Origin: an uncultured Acidobacteriia bacterium
Lineage (GTDB): Bacteria; Acidobacteriota; Terriglobia; Bryobacterales; Bryobacteraceae
Length of the DNA stretch: 64,000 nt
Direction: 5' to 3'
Assembly (NCBI GenBank): GCA_903828455.1
Contig: CAIKMJ010000046.1
Span: 1 to 64,000, forward strand
Shown here: in pieces, positions 21,097 through 54,540 of the stretch
Layout of the letters: each line of letters starts with the position of its first letter
Numbering within the stretch: the first letter of the stretch is position 1
Notes under the pieces: model-generated
Database searches by the model: none
Seen by the model: the letters and a program-made list of their open reading frames with translations, nothing else
Told to the model about the DNA's origin: nothing
Position numbers and translations under genes: made by a program

Positions 21097-21687
21097 TTGA
21101 AAGCGCTGCTGAAGGGTCTCCTCCACGCGATTTTTCTCCTGTCGGCCTTTCCCTGCGCTCTGACGTCGGGGTTCGGACGGTGGGAATCCATCTACCTGCT
21201 CTGGGCACAGTTCGCGGCGGCCATCCCGGGGCTGCCGGGCGACTATTTCCGCATCGCATACTATCGGCTGACTCTGGCCAGCTGCGCGCTCGAAAGCCGG
21301 ATCCAGTTTGGATCTTTTTTTGCGCATCCGCAGGCGCGCGTGGGGCGGGGAGTTTACATCGGCAGCTATTGCGTTCTGGGCCGGGCGTCGATCGGGGACC
21401 GGACGCAGATCGCCTCGGCTGTACAGATTCTGAGTGGCGGCAGGCAGCACGGGCGGGACGCGGAAGGGCGCATTCTGGGATCTGAACAGGGTGTATTTGA
21501 GACGGTGGCCATTGGCGCGGACTGCTGGATCGGGGCGGGTGCAATCGTCATGGCCGACGTAGGCGCAGGCACGACCATCGGAGCCGGCTCGGTTGTCACC
21601 AGACCGGTTCCGCCGAATTCGGTTGCCGTGGGGAGTCCGGCGAAGGTGATCCGAAGTCAGGCGGCCGGAGTTTCCGCGGAAGTCTGA
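21097..21687 (+). CDS. Hexapeptide-repeat acyltransferase (LbH fold)
   Basis: A 196-residue left-handed beta-helix acyltransferase of the WcaF/serine-acetyltransferase-like group. Hexapeptide turns are visible from ARVGRGVYIGSYCVLG through IGADCWIGAGAIVMADVGAG to GSVVTRPVPPNSVAVGSPAK, the standard C-terminal signature. Start is TTG; the ATG 8 nt earlier leads immediately to a stop. Such enzymes acetylate sugars of exopolysaccharides. Its 3' end overlaps the convergent GT2 gene by 31 bp. Confidence 0.85.
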   Translation: MKALLKGLLHAIFLLSAFPCALTSGFGRWESIYLLWAQFAAAIPGLPGDYFRIAYYRLTLASCALESRIQFGSFFAHPQARVGRGVYIGSYCVLGRASIGDRTQIASAVQILSGGRQHGRDAEGRILGSEQGVFETVAIGADCWIGAGAIVMADVGAGTTIGAGSVVTRPVPPNSVAVGSPAKVIRSQAAGVSAEV

Positions 21688-22820
21688 ACGCGCGTCTGCT
21701 TCCAGAGCCGTGTGGGCGGCACGAAAAAGACGGCGACCGAACAAAGCGCGGCAACATTGAGGACGAAAAAAGTCTGGGCCGGCGAGGTGAGCCGGCGAAT
21801 ACGCCACCCGGGCGGGACAGAACCGTTGGCTACGGAGAGGATCATCCAGAATCCGGCGGCAATCAGCAGACCAGCGCGCAGCCGTGAGTGCGGCGGCAGG
21901 GCGATCGTCGCGATCAGGAAGAGGAGCAGCAGCCAGGGCAGCGTCAGTCTCGTGAGTTTGTGCGAGAGAAAGTGAAACCGCATACGATTCCGGGCGGTGA
22001 ACAGTTCCGGGAAACGGGCGTGGACCTGCCACAGGCCGGCCAGGGTGCGAAAACGGCGCTGGAACTCCGTACCCGGCACGGCCGGGTAATCGTACGCAAT
22101 AGCCGCGGGATCGAAGATCACCCGGTACCCCCGGAAGAATGCGCGCAGAGGCATGACCGCGTCATCGGTGAGCGTGTCGGGAGGCAGCGGCGCGGTGAGA
22201 GAACGGCGCATCGCGTAAATGCACCCGGTGGTATTGAACAGCGAGTCAATCTCGGAATGGCGTTTCCGCGCCCAGATCTCGTAGCGCCAGTAAAGGTCCA
22301 TGTCGGCCTGTTCACCGTTGTCGCCACGCCGCAGGACCATCTCTCCGGTGACGGCGCCGACGGCCGGATCGGCGAAATTCGCGACCAGGTGGCGCAGACA
22401 ACTGCGCTCCAGCGGCTGGCGCACGTCGGTAAAGAAGATGACTTCACCTGTGGCCGCCGCCAGCCCGTGATTCAGGGCCGCCGCTTTACCGCCACGGGGC
22501 ACGACCAGGAGCCGCACGCGCTGATCCGCGAATTCCGCAACGATTTCTTCCGTGCGGTCGGTGGAACCGTCCGAGACGACAATAATGTCCATCAGATGCG
22601 CGGGGTAGTCGAGTCCGAGTAAAGTATCCAGCTTCTGCCGGATCATCGATTCGCCGTTATGAACTGCCATCACCACGGTAACCGTGGTCTGGAACGCCAG
22701 GTCCTTGGCCGCGGGGCCGCGCGTTCGCCGGCGCCGGCGAGTCAGCAGCCACGGATAGCCGGCGAGGGTATAGACGATCCCGGCGGCTGAACCGATCAGG
22801 AGCATGTAAGAGAAGTCCAT
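21657..22820 (-). CDS. Membrane glycosyltransferase family 2
   Basis: A 387-residue inverting glycosyltransferase with a single N-terminal membrane segment (LLIGSAAGIVYTLAGYPWLL) and two or three C-terminal ones (LTLPWLLLLFLIATIAL, LLIAAGFWMILSV). The catalytic domain has TVVMAVHNGES, VVSDGSTDRTEEIV and a conserved Asp in EVIFFTDVRQ, with RRFRTLAGLWQV as the QxxRW-like region. It is the last gene of a three-gene unit and its ATG overlaps the previous stop by one base (TGATG). Confidence 0.88.
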   Translation of the reverse strand: MDFSYMLLIGSAAGIVYTLAGYPWLLTRRRRRTRGPAAKDLAFQTTVTVVMAVHNGESMIRQKLDTLLGLDYPAHLMDIIVVSDGSTDRTEEIVAEFADQRVRLLVVPRGGKAAALNHGLAAATGEVIFFTDVRQPLERSCLRHLVANFADPAVGAVTGEMVLRRGDNGEQADMDLYWRYEIWARKRHSEIDSLFNTTGCIYAMRRSLTAPLPPDTLTDDAVMPLRAFFRGYRVIFDPAAIAYDYPAVPGTEFQRRFRTLAGLWQVHARFPELFTARNRMRFHFLSHKLTRLTLPWLLLLFLIATIALPPHSRLRAGLLIAAGFWMILSVANGSVPPGWRIRRLTSPAQTFFVLNVAALCSVAVFFVPPTRLWKQTRVQTSAETPAA

Positions 22821-24112
22821 CAGGGCGCAACTCCGCTGCGCCGGCCCGGAGACGGCAGGAAACTGTCGAGAATGATTTCAGCGTCCAGCCAGACGCACCC
22901 TTCCTTGACGTAAAAAAGATCGTATTCGATCTGGCGGCACTCGTCCGGCAACCGAACGTCGGACGGCGTGTGCAACCTCGCCCAGCCAAGTATGCCCGGC
23001 TTTACCGAAAACCGGTGAGAATAAAACGGCATGACGTCGGTCAGCCAGGCAGCGAACTCCGCACGCACGGGTCGCGGACCCACCAATGCCATGTCGCCGC
23101 GCACCACGTTGAGCAACTGAGGGAGGTTTGTCAGGCGCAGACGGTTTAAGATCCGGCCAACGCCGGTCACTGTTCCCGTCCCGTCCAACCGCGTCGTCCG
23201 AAAGCGCAAAAGGCGGAACGGTATGTACTGAAAGCCGGCACAAACGGAGCCTTCGAGGACCGGCCCGGGTCCACCGAACAGACGCACCGCGAGGGCAGCG
23301 AACAGCATGACCGGAGCCAAAACCACCAGCAACGTGATTCCCACAAGATCGGTGTATACGGACTGAACCGCGATTGTCCGGCTGTCACCGCGCAACGCCG
23401 AAGAGAGGAGCAGTTCCACAGGCCGCAGCCCCTCGCAGCACACGCGGTGAAAAAAGCGCTCGTAAACAGCGGGGGATTCTTCCACTTCAATACCCTTGAG
23501 CCGGCATGCGAGCAGCGCTGAGGGAGATACCTGCCGCTCCCACTCTTTCATACTTACCACGATATTCGTCGGCTGGTGCCGGCTGAGTACTTCCTCGAAA
23601 CGGCTCAAATCGCCGAGGTGGGCGGCACCCGCCGGCAAGGCCGCGGGTTGTCCTGTAATCACGCCGACCAGGGAACCGCGGAACATGCGGAAAATTTTGT
23701 CGGCAACGGAATCGAACCCGACCAGCAGGAAGCGTTTTCGCGAGCGCTCACGGTCCGCCGCGAACTGAACGTGGAGGGTCACCAGTGCCGCCGAAACCAC
23801 CCCGCCGGCAGCAACCAGGAAAGGTGTGCGCCGAACCAGGAAGGCGTACGTGAGGATCGCATGCAACAGAAGGTTGATGCCGGTTCCGAGCGAGAATCTT
23901 TCGATAAAGGCCACCCACCAGGTGGCCGATTCCTGGACCGGATCGTTTCGCAGTTCGGTCGCCGCCCAGAAGGCCAGGATGGAGGCTCCGGAAGTGAGCA
24001 GCATTTCGCTGGATGTGAGGCCCCCGGCGAAAAAATTGTTATAAACGACCAGGGCGGCGGCAAATCCCGCTGAGATCAGCAGAAAATTGATGAGACTGTC
24101 ACGCACGCGCAT
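22820..24112 (-). CDS. Sugar transferase homologue (WcaJ/WbaP type) with degenerate active site
   Basis: A 430-residue membrane protein built like polyprenyl glycosylphosphotransferases: several N-terminal membrane segments, a CoA-binding-like middle domain (KRFLLVGFDSVADKIFRMFR) and a C-terminal transferase domain with LVVLAPVMLFAALAVRLFGG and VRGDMALVGPRPVR. Active enzymes have DELPQ, whose Asp-Glu pair is catalytic; here the segment reads RLTNLPQ. The upstream Lys-Phe-Arg-(Ser/Thr)-Met motif is LLRFRTT. The usual KRxxD start of the domain is YTDLVG. It may therefore be inactive or have changed function. It overlaps both neighbours by one base. Confidence 0.82.
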   Translation of the reverse strand: MRVRDSLINFLLISAGFAAALVVYNNFFAGGLTSSEMLLTSGASILAFWAATELRNDPVQESATWWVAFIERFSLGTGINLLLHAILTYAFLVRRTPFLVAAGGVVSAALVTLHVQFAADRERSRKRFLLVGFDSVADKIFRMFRGSLVGVITGQPAALPAGAAHLGDLSRFEEVLSRHQPTNIVVSMKEWERQVSPSALLACRLKGIEVEESPAVYERFFHRVCCEGLRPVELLLSSALRGDSRTIAVQSVYTDLVGITLLVVLAPVMLFAALAVRLFGGPGPVLEGSVCAGFQYIPFRLLRFRTTRLDGTGTVTGVGRILNRLRLTNLPQLLNVVRGDMALVGPRPVRAEFAAWLTDVMPFYSHRFSVKPGILGWARLHTPSDVRLPDECRQIEYDLFYVKEGCVWLDAEIILDSFLPSPGRRSGVAP

Positions 24113-25512
24113 TATGAAACAGCGGGCTGCTTCCAGTCCTGGCAGCGCTGCTGAAAAGTCTGGCTGAGGATGGAAGCCAGAAGCTGGAGGTCAGGCGTAC
24201 CGATGCCGGCCTGGCCGTCTCCTTCCACCTCGATGGATTCGGCTTCGCCCAACTCAACCGCAAACGACCAGGAGGGCCTGCGCGCAGCGGCGAGGACTTC
24301 GTCGTGAATTCCGTTCGGGCTCTTCGATTTGAGCCGAATCCAGTTCCATTCGCGCGCGGCCGCCACAACGTGCCGCCACCACTCTTCCCGAGTGCCGGCG
24401 CGACCCAGTGCCTGAGCCAGTTGCTCCATGCGTGCTTTGTCGGAAAGGGCTTTCCGGAAATCTCCGCGAAACAATAAATTCACTGCAGCCTTAAATTCAG
24501 CGTACCGCAATTGGTGAATACCCGCGACTACAGCCAAAATTAATCCGGCTGTTACCGCCCACCGCATAGCATCGCCGGCGCCCGGCCAGCTGATTAATAT
24601 GCCCGCGCCACCACCGAGGATGCCGACCGCATACAGGGTCAGGGCGCCGCGCCTGACCGTGAGTCCGCGGTCCAGCAGGCGGTGGTGGATATGCCCTCGG
24701 TCGGCCGAAAATATACCCTGCCCCTTGAGACTACGGCGCACGATCGACAGGCCAAGATCGAGCATCGGCAGACCCAGGGCGAGGAACGGCAGGGCTACGC
24801 CAACAGGCGTCACGTTGTCACCCGTCCAGACAATCCCGAAGCACCCGAGAAGAAAACCCAGCAGCAACGCCCCGGAATCCCCTAAGAAGACCGTTGCCGG
24901 ATTGAAATTAAAGAAAAGGAACCCGAGCAGCGCGCCCGCCAGCGGCAGCACAGTAAAGGCCAGCGACCAGTCGCTGGTCATCCACGCGGCGCCGAAGAAG
25001 GACAGCGTAGCGCAGAAAGCAATCCCGCCACACAAGCCGTCCAGACCGTCGATCAGGTTCAGAGCATTGGTGGTGAGGAGCAGCCAGAAGACGGTGGCCG
25101 GAAGGCTGATCCACACAGGGAGTTCGATGCCGCCCAACCGGTCAATGCTGAGTCCGCTGTTGTAAGCGACGACGGCGGCCACAATCTGACCGAGCAGTTT
25201 GATTACCGGCTTGAGGTTGAGGAAATCGTCGATCAGGCCGACAAGAAAAATGACCAGGGCACCCGACAGAATCGTCTGCAGCCAGTGGACCGGAAATACC
25301 GAACCGGTTCCACGCAGAGTCGTAAGGGCGACGACGTAAGCAATGGCAATCGGGATTCCGCCCACGCGGGGGATCGGATAGGCATGGACTTTGCGCCGGC
25401 CCGGACGATCGACGACGTTGTACGAGCGAAAAATATCCCGTATGATCGGCGCGAGAACGAACGAAACGATGAAGGCTCTCAGACAAGCCCACATCAATGT
25501 GGTCAGGTCCAT
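24112..25512 (-). CDS. MraY/WecA-family undecaprenyl-phosphate sugar-1-phosphate transferase
   Basis: A 466-residue polytopic membrane enzyme that starts glycan assembly by moving a HexNAc-1-phosphate from its UDP-sugar to undecaprenyl phosphate. Signature motifs: LVGLIDDFLNLKP, ALNLIDGLDGLCGG, VFLGDSGALLLGFLLG and DRGHIHHRLLDRG. About ten membrane helices end near residue 320. The remaining 145 residues form a soluble extension absent from plain WecA, of unknown role. It heads a unit with the degenerate sugar transferase and a GT2, all joined by one-base overlaps. It may supply the priming activity that the degenerate transferase lacks. Confidence 0.9.
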   Translation of the reverse strand: MDLTTLMWACLRAFIVSFVLAPIIRDIFRSYNVVDRPGRRKVHAYPIPRVGGIPIAIAYVVALTTLRGTGSVFPVHWLQTILSGALVIFLVGLIDDFLNLKPVIKLLGQIVAAVVAYNSGLSIDRLGGIELPVWISLPATVFWLLLTTNALNLIDGLDGLCGGIAFCATLSFFGAAWMTSDWSLAFTVLPLAGALLGFLFFNFNPATVFLGDSGALLLGFLLGCFGIVWTGDNVTPVGVALPFLALGLPMLDLGLSIVRRSLKGQGIFSADRGHIHHRLLDRGLTVRRGALTLYAVGILGGGAGILISWPGAGDAMRWAVTAGLILAVVAGIHQLRYAEFKAAVNLLFRGDFRKALSDKARMEQLAQALGRAGTREEWWRHVVAAAREWNWIRLKSKSPNGIHDEVLAAARRPSWSFAVELGEAESIEVEGDGQAGIGTPDLQLLASILSQTFQQRCQDWKQPAVS

Positions 25513-52914: not shown

Positions 52915-53905
52915 CGGCGTCGCGCGCGGCCAGGATGCCGTTGAGACGCCGCATCCAGGAGTCAATTTCGTCCCAGGCGCCAGGGCCGTCGGCGATCCGG
53001 TGCAAGCCGGGATCGGTGGACCGCTCAAACTCGGTCTCGTCGTCCTTGAGATCTTCCAGCAGCTTGTCACCGGGCCGCAATCCCACGACGCGCGTTTGAA
53101 TCTCACGGCCCATCGCCTGGCCAAGACGGCGGGCGAAATCGATAATCCGCACTGGCTCGCCCATCTCCGGCACAAAGATTTCGCCCTGGTGGACCAGACT
53201 CACGGTTCGAAGAATAAAATCCACGGCCTCGCCCGAGGTGACGAAATAGCGATAGGTTTCCGGGTGCGTGATCGTCACCGGCAGGCCGGCGCGGATCTGC
53301 TCAACGAACGTCGTCCAGACACTGCCTTCGCTGCCCAGAACATTGCCCAGCCGGATCGACCCGCGATGGTTCACGGGCGCGGCGGCGACGATTAACTCAG
53401 AGGCCCGCTTGGTGCGGCCCATGATGCCCTTCGCATTCGCGGCCTTGTCGGTCGAGATAAGCAACACCGTCCCGACGCCCTGCCGGCTGGCGGCGCCCGC
53501 CACGCTCCAGGTGCCCATCACGTTATTGCGCACCGCTTCGATGGGATGCTCCTCCATCAGCGGCACGTGCTTGTAAGCTGCCGCGTGGATGACGGTATCG
53601 ACACTGTTGCGCGCGATGATTTCTTCAATCAGGCCGGCATCGCAAACATCGCCTACGGTGGCGTTCGCGCGAGGACCGAGTTCGCGTGCCAGCCGGAAGA
53701 TGTTGTTCTCCGCCCGGTCCAGCGCCACGAGACAGGCAACTTCCATTGCCGCCAGACGGGCGCAAAGTTTCGAGCCGATGGACCCCGCCGCCCCGGTTAC
53801 CAGGATCCGGCGACTCAACAGCCCGGGAGGCAGCACCGCGGGCGGTGCAATTGCGCGGTCGAGCACGAAGGCAGCTACGGCATCGGGATCCGGGTGAGCG
53901 ATCAC
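52838..53905 (-). CDS. CapD/FlaA1-like nucleotide-sugar 4,6-dehydratase
   Basis: A 355-residue short-chain-dehydrogenase-type enzyme acting on UDP-HexNAc. ILVTGAAGSIGSKLCARL is the NAD loop, HAAAYKHVPLMEEHP is typical of the family, and the catalytic arrangement ISTDKAANAKGIMGRTK shows the Ser...Met-x3-Lys pattern of the PglF/WbpM group in place of Ser-Tyr-Lys. Compared with full CapD it lacks the membrane N-terminus. GTG 53905 was chosen because it overlaps the previous stop by 4 bp (GTGA). It is the last gene of a four-gene polysaccharide operon. Confidence 0.9.
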   Translation of the reverse strand: MIAHPDPDAVAAFVLDRAIAPPAVLPPGLLSRRILVTGAAGSIGSKLCARLAAMEVACLVALDRAENNIFRLARELGPRANATVGDVCDAGLIEEIIARNSVDTVIHAAAYKHVPLMEEHPIEAVRNNVMGTWSVAGAASRQGVGTVLLISTDKAANAKGIMGRTKRASELIVAAAPVNHRGSIRLGNVLGSEGSVWTTFVEQIRAGLPVTITHPETYRYFVTSGEAVDFILRTVSLVHQGEIFVPEMGEPVRIIDFARRLGQAMGREIQTRVVGLRPGDKLLEDLKDDETEFERSTDPGLHRIADGPGAWDEIDSWMRRLNGILAARDAVSASDWLAQFAAHFASSSAPYQPAR

Positions 53906-54540
53906 ACGGCACCTCTTCCGGCCCCGAACAGGCGCCCCGCCGTGCGCAACAGCAGCCGCGCGTCTTCTGCCGGCGAACACAGACTCAGCCATCGCTGTTC
54001 GACGGCCAGCTTGGCCGGCAGCAAGGTGCTCCGGTAGAACGCAACGGGGTCACTCACGCCGCGCAGTCGCTCTTCTTCGTTGAAATATTCCACGCTCGCT
54101 GCCCCGGTAATGCCGGGCGCAACCTCCAGAATCTCAGTCCACACGGGATCTGCTTCGTCGACGAACTCCGGAACTTCGGGCCGCGGGCCGACCAGCGCCA
54201 TCTCGCCCCGGACAACGTTCCATAATTGCGGCAATTCATCCAGCTTCCAGCGTCTCAGATGAGCACCGACGGACGTAATTCGGGGGTCGCCACCCGCTGT
54301 GATGGAGGGTCCGGCCGCTGTTACGCGGGCAGCCGGGAGCATGGTGCGGAACTTCAGTTGCCGGAAGCGCCTGCCGTGCCGGCCCACGCGCGTCCCCGCG
54401 TAGCACACCGGCCAGCCATCGCCCAGCAGCACGACCGCGGCGCACACCACCATCAGCGGGGAAATCGCCAGCAGCAGCAGGGCCGCCAGTGTTCTTTCAA
54501 TCGCTCTCTTCGCCGCACTGGTGGCATAGGGGCTGACCAT
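53902..54540 (-). CDS. Initiating sugar transferase (PglC/WcaJ type)
   Basis: A 212-residue monotopic phosphoglycosyl transferase that loads a sugar phosphate onto undecaprenyl phosphate. It has the short form: KRAIERTLAALLLLAISPLM (membrane helix with KR start), RVGRHGRRFRQLKFRTM, and KLDELPQLWNVVRGEMALVG with the catalytic Asp-Glu intact. VAPGITGAASVEYFNEEER is normal. This is the intact counterpart of the degenerate homologue at 22820-24112. It lies 6 bp after the methyltransferase and overlaps the CapD-like gene by 4 bp. Confidence 0.93.
   Translation of the reverse strand: MVSPYATSAAKRAIERTLAALLLLAISPLMVVCAAVVLLGDGWPVCYAGTRVGRHGRRFRQLKFRTMLPAARVTAAGPSITAGGDPRITSVGAHLRRWKLDELPQLWNVVRGEMALVGPRPEVPEFVDEADPVWTEILEVAPGITGAASVEYFNEEERLRGVSDPVAFYRSTLLPAKLAVEQRWLSLCSPAEDARLLLRTAGRLFGAGRGAV

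Follow-up and report, generated by a model that had tools for sequence, protein, structure and literature searches.

The window, which is the whole stretch of 64,000 nucleotides analysed here (contig CAIKMJ010000046.1 of assembly GCA_903828455.1, from an uncultured Acidobacteriia bacterium), carries on its minus strand a coupled cluster of three genes, in which a homologue of the large monotopic phosphoglycosyl transferases (PGTs), here termed A, is encoded between a WecA-like protein and a GT2 glycosyltransferase. The features considered are the following.

22820..24112, minus strand: A, a candidate pseudo-PGT of 430 amino acids (aa) with the architecture of large monotopic PGTs and without the catalytic dyad (PF02397, E=4.6e-32)
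23126..23131, minus strand: codons 328-329 (Thr-Asn), which replace the catalytic Asp-Glu (translation of 23111-23146 and alignment to PglC and WbaP)
24112..25512, minus strand: WecA-like polytopic PGT of 466 aa (PF00953, E=7e-38), with a C-terminal extension that has no Pfam match
21657..22820, minus strand: GT2 glycosyltransferase of 387 aa, third gene of the coupled cluster (PF00535, E=1.5e-24)
53902..54540, minus strand: small PGT of the same superfamily, intact (KLDELPQ, dyad Asp-Glu; PF02397, E=1.1e-46), outside the cluster and 28 kb away

The open reading frame of A starts with ATG and encodes its 430 aa with zero internal stops. The WecA-like gene lies upstream and the GT2 gene downstream, both joined to A by one-base overlaps (TAATG at the WecA/PGT junction and TGATG at the PGT/GT2 junction). 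Reading of the frame and junctions thus bears out the initial annotation, which had described an intact gene overlapping both neighbours by one base, and the three genes may be cotranscribed. The PF02397 match of A spans residues 257-418 and scores 111.4 bits against a cut-off of 27. The second transferase at 53902-54540 is intact, as had been proposed, and the genome of the window encodes six PF02397 domains in total, three with Asp-Glu and three without.

The WecA-like protein matches TIGR02380 with E=2e-35 and 122.6 bits, below the cut-off of 326.05. Ten of its residues (D95, D96, N149, N152, D155, D158, D212, H274, H276 and H277), which we take to be catalytic, are invariant in the 15 aligned rows, that of the window included. 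Based on the PF00953 match and these conserved Asp, Asn and His residues, we assign the neighbour of A as a predicted member of the WecA-type polytopic PGT family.

Active-site residues and predicted fold of A

In monotopic PGTs, the Asp of the Asp-Glu dyad is the nucleophile that forms the covalent intermediate. In A the catalytic DELPQ is replaced, as first read from the sequence, and T328-N329 in NRLRLTNLPQLL align with the Asp-Glu of PglC and WbaP. The initial annotation had also called two further motifs eroded and a third, VRGDMALVGPRP, preserved. The last is indeed retained and KFR(S/T)M reads RFRTT; in KRxxD the Lys and Arg are gone (Q250, S251), and the loss of its Asp depends on the alignment, which places it on T254 or D255.

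To characterize these positions across relatives of A we used an alignment of 14 rows, ten from the genus of the window genome and four from other genera. Neither Asp (position 328, 0/14) nor Glu (position 329, 0/14) occurs at its place in the dyad; the first position holds Thr, Val, Ala, Asn or Glu and the second Asn (10 rows), Asp (3) or Arg (1). Other polar PGT residues are replaced as well: Gln289 is kept in 0/14 rows, Arg291 is Cys and Lys303 is Arg in 14/14, and Arg323 is kept in 1/14. Judged by its spacing from the dyad, position 323 would be the equivalent of PglC Arg88, a residue tied to undecaprenyl phosphate binding in the available part of PMC10519829. Some ligand binding may remain, because Arg305 (13/14), Arg347 (9/14) and the GPRP block are largely kept. 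Fourteen structural positions (P267, G293, F299, G319, P331, G339, M341, G345, P346, P372, G373, D398, Y401 and D410) are retained in all 14 rows.

An AlphaFold2 model of A built from 27 sequences (mean pLDDT 85.6) contains four long N-terminal helices, a Rossmann-like domain, a long helix at residues 244-279 and a PGT domain. A Foldseek search with this model ranked WbaP (8t53) first and PglC second, and VIA-align superposed it on WbaP 8t53 over 367 residues (Z 23.3, 5.0 A) and on PglC (8g1n, 8e37) over 176 residues (Z 21.0, 2.1 A). The PglC alignment and helix 244-279, which is only predicted to be of the re-entrant type, support a PGT fold for A; a fold shared with PglC and WbaP is no proof of function. 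The best NCBIfam matches of A are TIGR03013 and TIGR03025, and A lies under the curated cut-off of EpsB/TIGR03013 with 179.8 versus 393.35 bits, whereas an active relative from genome G003 passes with 404.5 bits.

The covalent mechanism described for the monotopic PGT family in the accessible part of PMC10519829 should fail without the dyad, and A is therefore taken, with high confidence, to be inactive as a PGT, a judgement made from its residues. Catalysis might instead have changed: the pocket of A would still bind a nucleotide sugar or an undecaprenyl-linked substrate and perform other chemistry, such as hydrolysis or modification, through residues outside the dyad. Such an enzyme would agree with the kept fold and GDMALVGPRP block in a highly constrained domain, with the narrow second dyad position (Asn 10/14, Asp 3/14) and with the Asp kept in 4/32 WecA-linked proteins, and the other acidic residues that are invariant in the A alignment (E71, D134, E218, D243, E396, D398, D410 and E412) could form another active centre. 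However, the varied residues at the first dyad position are unlike a new nucleophile, and Gln289, Arg291 and Arg323, polar positions conserved in active PGTs, are replaced too, so that we regard changed catalysis as unlikely.

Linkage of dyad-less PGT homologues to WecA and their descent

Among 151 genomes searched, that of the window included, clear orthologues of A were present in nine other genomes of the genus, at 46-57% identity. All ten copies, counting the one in the window, sit between WecA and GT2 (the WecA gene of G011 is cut by the contig end), and their dyad positions read TN, TN, AN, NN, ED, VN, VN, VN, AD and AD. Three further genomes of the genus (G001, G012 and G013) encode a more distant copy adjoining WecA, with EY, EY and EF.

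We took a census of the 19 genomes of the genus, in which the dyad was read with our own profile in 117 domains at the listed PF02397 places, with stretches ending at 5 kb or at contig ends; fragments L167 and L187, which have no readable dyad, and seven rows from other genera are left out. Asp-Glu was found in 75 domains, and 0/75 of these have a WecA homologue at a distance of 5 kb or less in the stretch. Of the 42 domains without it, 13 are no more than 200 bp from WecA, a further 8 no more than 5 kb, and 21 are not that near; these counts are lower bounds given at least one further weak dyad-less row (the third gene in G003). The 21 distant domains belong mostly to fusion families, together with four second dyad-less PGTs (L054, L140, L186 and L189) from genomes that also have a WecA-linked one. 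The dyad is absent in 13/13 PGT-like genes of the census within 200 bp of WecA, more than expected by chance; the Fisher p of 6.9e-12 for the census takes no account of common ancestry (G014 and G017 are near-copies) and should not be read as a probability of function.

When all loci read are taken together, a PGT-like open reading frame adjoins WecA in 32 genomes (29 from one reading, with G011, G012 and G017 added from the dyad reading), and the two open frames are never more than 142 bp apart; G119, one of these genomes, is from another family of the same class. Asp-Glu occurs in 0/32 of these copies and Glu at the second place in 0/32, and the Asp is kept in 4/32. The substitution is thus conserved beside WecA homologues, and the converse case raised in the initial annotation, orthologues mostly with an intact Asp-Glu, is excluded for this sample of 32.

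Sampling from the PGT side gave the same association. Thirty loci were read of the 53 A-profile matches listed for 298 genomes of the class; 11/11 dyad-less proteins lie beside WecA, and 0/19 with Asp-Glu have WecA in the stretch. Among named loci (the best 80 of 143), 12/12 with a dyad-less main match have WecA (uncultured Acidobacteriia 6, Bryobacterales 4, Terriglobia 2); the other 68 read Asp-Glu in 67 cases and Thr-Glu in one (L129), and WecA is in the locus in 0/68. Because the dyad-less named loci are largely the same records as the genomes above, they are no independent sample.

A tree of 77 domains, computed with the dyad columns removed, has one branch that parts 42 dyad-less rows from 35 rows with Asp-Glu (support 100/98, recovered in 100% of the 200 bootstrap replicates); the fusion families were left out, as were the G014 copies, which differ little from those of G017, and four proteins appear twice among the Asp-Glu rows. 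Many independent losses after linkage to WecA are not supported, as this tree needs one change. A larger tree that includes the fusion families, and in which fragment L167 was scored as lacking Asp-Glu, needs three changes of the dyad label, and a single origin of every dyad-less PGT in the genus is not supported. For the WecA-linked rows and the second dyad-less PGTs beside them (B, below), the loss is best read, from the tree, as old and inherited; because these rows form one group, the link to WecA would be a single inherited arrangement and not many independent events.

Selection was estimated in one close pair (G014 and G017), with dN/dS values of 0.12 (pseudo-PGT), 0.10 (WecA), 0.11 (GT2) and 0.12 (second dyad-less PGT). 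The last 190 codons of the pseudo-PGT, which encode the PGT domain, give a dN of 0.014 and a dS of 0.241 (dN/dS about 0.06), and the remainder a dN of 0.052 and a dS of 0.327 (dN/dS 0.16). In more distant pairs of A, dN/dS is 0.13-0.17, with dS near saturation. In the close pair, the dyad-less PGT domain is under purifying selection.

These values bear on the possibility that A is a sensor, in which the membrane bundle and Rossmann-like domain would adjust WecA allosterically on binding a nucleotide or nucleotide sugar, with the PGT domain as a mere dimer platform. The helical bundle and Rossmann-like architecture are predicted with good confidence, the consulted portion of PMC10942596 states that the study informs on regulation by the equivalent domain of WbaP, and that of PMC12802240 reports that the large PGT EpsZ is regulated via its dimeric form. 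In the pair analysed, however, the PGT domain is the more constrained part (about 0.06 versus 0.16), which argues against the N-terminal part as the sole working module, and we consider a sensor of this kind quite improbable. For A on its own, decay would account for the loss of catalytic residues; nevertheless decay, local mutation and sequencing error can all be rejected with near certainty, given that the dyad is lost in 32/32 genomes with a PGT-like gene beside WecA, that the dyad-less rows are one old group and that dN/dS in the dyad-less domain of the one pair is about 0.06.

Other dyad-less PGTs and the active EpsB-type relatives

Eight of the ten genomes with A proper encode a second dyad-less large PGT, termed B, on the far side of GT2 and no more than 5 kb from WecA; its dyad positions read DR, DT, HR, DA, DA, DS, YR and YR. 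In the genome of the window a relative of B with SW lies on a separate contig, and the G016 contig ends too early for B. G001, G012 and G013 have a different second dyad-less PGT located elsewhere; L140, L186 and L189 form their own clade, and the idea that all second dyad-less PGTs are one orthologous B is not supported. In total, 12 of the 13 genomes of the genus with WecA and A or its near relative encode two dyad-less large PGTs, and neither was found in the six genomes of the genus without A.

The closest clade of active EpsB-type PGTs has the opposite distribution, being present in 5/6 genomes of the genus without A and in 0/13 with A or its near relative. The GT2 family of the partner of A occurs in 19/19 genomes of the genus. 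It is encoded directly downstream of A in 10/10 genomes with A proper (that of the window included) and adjoins the active EpsB-type PGT in G003 and G008, both without A; in G005 and G006 a distance of 12-13 kb separates it from the active PGT, and in G010 the two are on different contigs. In G001, G012 and G013 it is on other contigs, and a strict three-gene unit is therefore rejected. These distributions fit, and do not prove, a shift of priming from an active EpsB-type PGT to WecA in which the PGT fold would have been retained. Strict mutual exclusion between the dyad-less pair and the active EpsB-type PGT is true in the 19 genomes of the genus and is broken by G119, which has a WecA-linked dyad-less PGT and a large PGT with Asp-Glu together, so the pattern of the genus is not general.

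Dyad-less PGT sequence also occurs as a half domain joined to a WecG/TagA/CpsF domain in one protein, in 13 genomes including that of the window, with an intact small PGT adjacent in 13/13. The fusion was identified by Pfam in two proteins and by similarity to one of these in the other eleven genomes; alignment at the dyad is poor in rows L296 and L297, in which Asp-Glu is not seen. The next gene in several of these loci encodes a hexapeptide-repeat protein whose PF02397 match is weak and falls short of the cut-off (21.9-26.9 versus 27 bits), and 1/3 of the hexapeptide-repeat proteins scanned has a nucleotidyltransferase match. In the larger tree the WecG-fused clade stands apart from the WecA-linked clade. 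Among the genomes of the genus without A, two (G003 and G005) have the WecG fusion, and G008 encodes the hexapeptide protein. The fusions lend support, separate from that of the WecA cluster, to the view that a dyad-less PGT fold is useful without catalysis.

Proposed role of A and comparison with known systems

Taken together, we think it probable, with moderate confidence, that A is a pseudo-PGT, an old relative of the EpsB-type large monotopic PGTs that serves as a non-catalytic partner of the WecA that primes. The partner role is drawn from the gene overlap, the conservation and the phyletic pattern. An ancestral EpsB-type relative would have lost Asp-Glu and kept its membrane bundle, Rossmann-like domain, long re-entrant-type helix and PGT fold. 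WecA would put the sugar-phosphate on undecaprenyl phosphate, and the pseudo-PGT, at the same membrane face and possibly as a homodimer or with its dyad-less paralogue B, could contact WecA physically and, as a subunit with no catalysis of its own, position or control it and pass the lipid-linked product on to the GT2 of the next gene. The initial annotation had suggested a scaffold or regulator for the WecA-like enzyme; conservation, selection and linkage fit the non-catalytic partner in that proposal, and scaffolding or regulation itself is what we infer beyond them. Scaffold, regulator and product hand-off are indistinguishable on present data, and the linked genes could just have a pathway in common.

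A requirement of WecA for such a partner is not implied. To our knowledge, known WecA enzymes, for example that of E. coli, function without a PGT partner of this kind. In a sample taken from the WecA side (best-scoring WecA places, the best 30 loci of each of two listings, 41 distinct), 13/40 WecA rows have no PGT neighbour in the stretch read, one of these at a contig end, and G008 and G010 have a WecA-like gene of this kind and lack A. WecA as such thus has no need of the partner.

A broader and tentative reading, which we put forward as possible, is that glycan initiation in these acidobacteria employs the dyad-less PGT fold as a reusable assembly module without catalytic function. A stand-alone pseudo-PGT, often with a second dyad-less paralogue, would organise the polytopic WecA, a half domain on WecG would link the enzyme of the second step with an active small PGT, and a fused tail might connect a nucleotidyltransferase to the same operon. 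If true, pseudoenzymes would form the basis of a priming metabolon that unites both unrelated PGT superfamilies in one complex.

In the literature covered, outside which lie preprints and most subscription journals, we found no described pseudo-PGT or pseudoenzyme branch of the monotopic PGTs and nothing relevant linking WecA, WcaJ, Acidobacteria or Bryobacter to this topic, and on catalytically inactive PGT homologues only PMC6133551, the available part of which concerns site-directed PglC variants. A pseudoenzyme branch of monotopic PGTs beside a member of the unrelated PGT superfamily would therefore, within that scope, apparently be new to print. The dyad-less group contrasts with the statement, in the part of PMC10519829 consulted, that all members of the monotopic PGT superfamily carry the Asp-Glu dyad. 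It follows for annotation that a PF02397 match should not be named a priming enzyme without a check of the dyad, and WecA with its pseudo-PGT offers a testable system for the organisation or control of the first membrane step in surface glycan synthesis.

A resembles the large monotopic PGTs (WbaP, WcaJ, EpsB/TIGR03013 and EpsZ) in its predicted helical bundle, Rossmann-like domain, long re-entrant-type helix and PGT domain, but lacks Asp-Glu, has other active-site residues changed, is encoded next to WecA and scores far under the family cut-offs. PglC, the minimal small monotopic PGT, is like A in the PGT domain, yet has the dyad where A has Thr-Asn. The WecA family of polytopic PGTs (PF00953) is unrelated to the monotopic PGTs; the neighbour of A belongs here and presumably does the priming. 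The EpsW-EpsZ pair of Myxococcus xanthus, as reported in the available part of PMC12802240, is similar in that a non-catalytic protein acts on an initiating PGT by direct interaction, but there the helper, a response regulator, has an active monotopic PGT as its target, whereas the candidate helper here is a dyad-less PGT encoded beside a polytopic one.

Gene-level features of the cluster and its relatives

The WecA-like protein encoded beside the pseudo-PGT (window 24112-25512, minus strand) has more than 100 C-terminal residues (approximately 350-466) that gave no Pfam match, and WecA relatives lacking a PGT neighbour have, with few exceptions, open frames of equal or greater length. The putative start codon of the pseudo-PGT relative in genome G009 (L037:4803-5999, minus strand) is uncertain because homology extends past the first ATG/GTG/TTG, upstream toward WecA. 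A TGA was reported within the matched stretch of two GT2 homologues (G005:C27:210720-211832 and G006:C93:27658-28758).

Further PGTs lacking the Asp-Glu dyad

L054:6864-8201, minus strand, contig C2 of the window's genome (G000): its second large dead PGT, with SW as the dyad
L129:5380-6855, plus strand, an Acidobacteria MAG: PGT with TELPQ

The former adjoins a group-1 glycosyltransferase, and no WecA was found in the stretch of locus read; the latter lies approximately 2 kb from an intact PGT in a locus with no WecA.

Dyad-lacking domains downstream of intact small PGTs

L055:5597-6346, plus strand: intact small PGT
L055:6353-7666, plus strand, G000 contig C5: WecG/TagA/CpsF glycosyltransferase and dead PGT half domain in one protein, directly downstream
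L209:6578-8185, L155:6303-8468 and L171:6930-8399, all plus strand: hexapeptide-repeat proteins with a weak, below-cut-off PF02397 match

The order of intact small PGT then WecG-fused half domain was common to all 13 genomes in which it was found, the fusion being Pfam-confirmed in two proteins and assigned by similarity to one of these in the other eleven genomes. The three hexapeptide-repeat proteins, among which only that of L209 has a nucleotidyltransferase match, lack the dyad, and each lies further along from an intact small PGT, on its downstream side.
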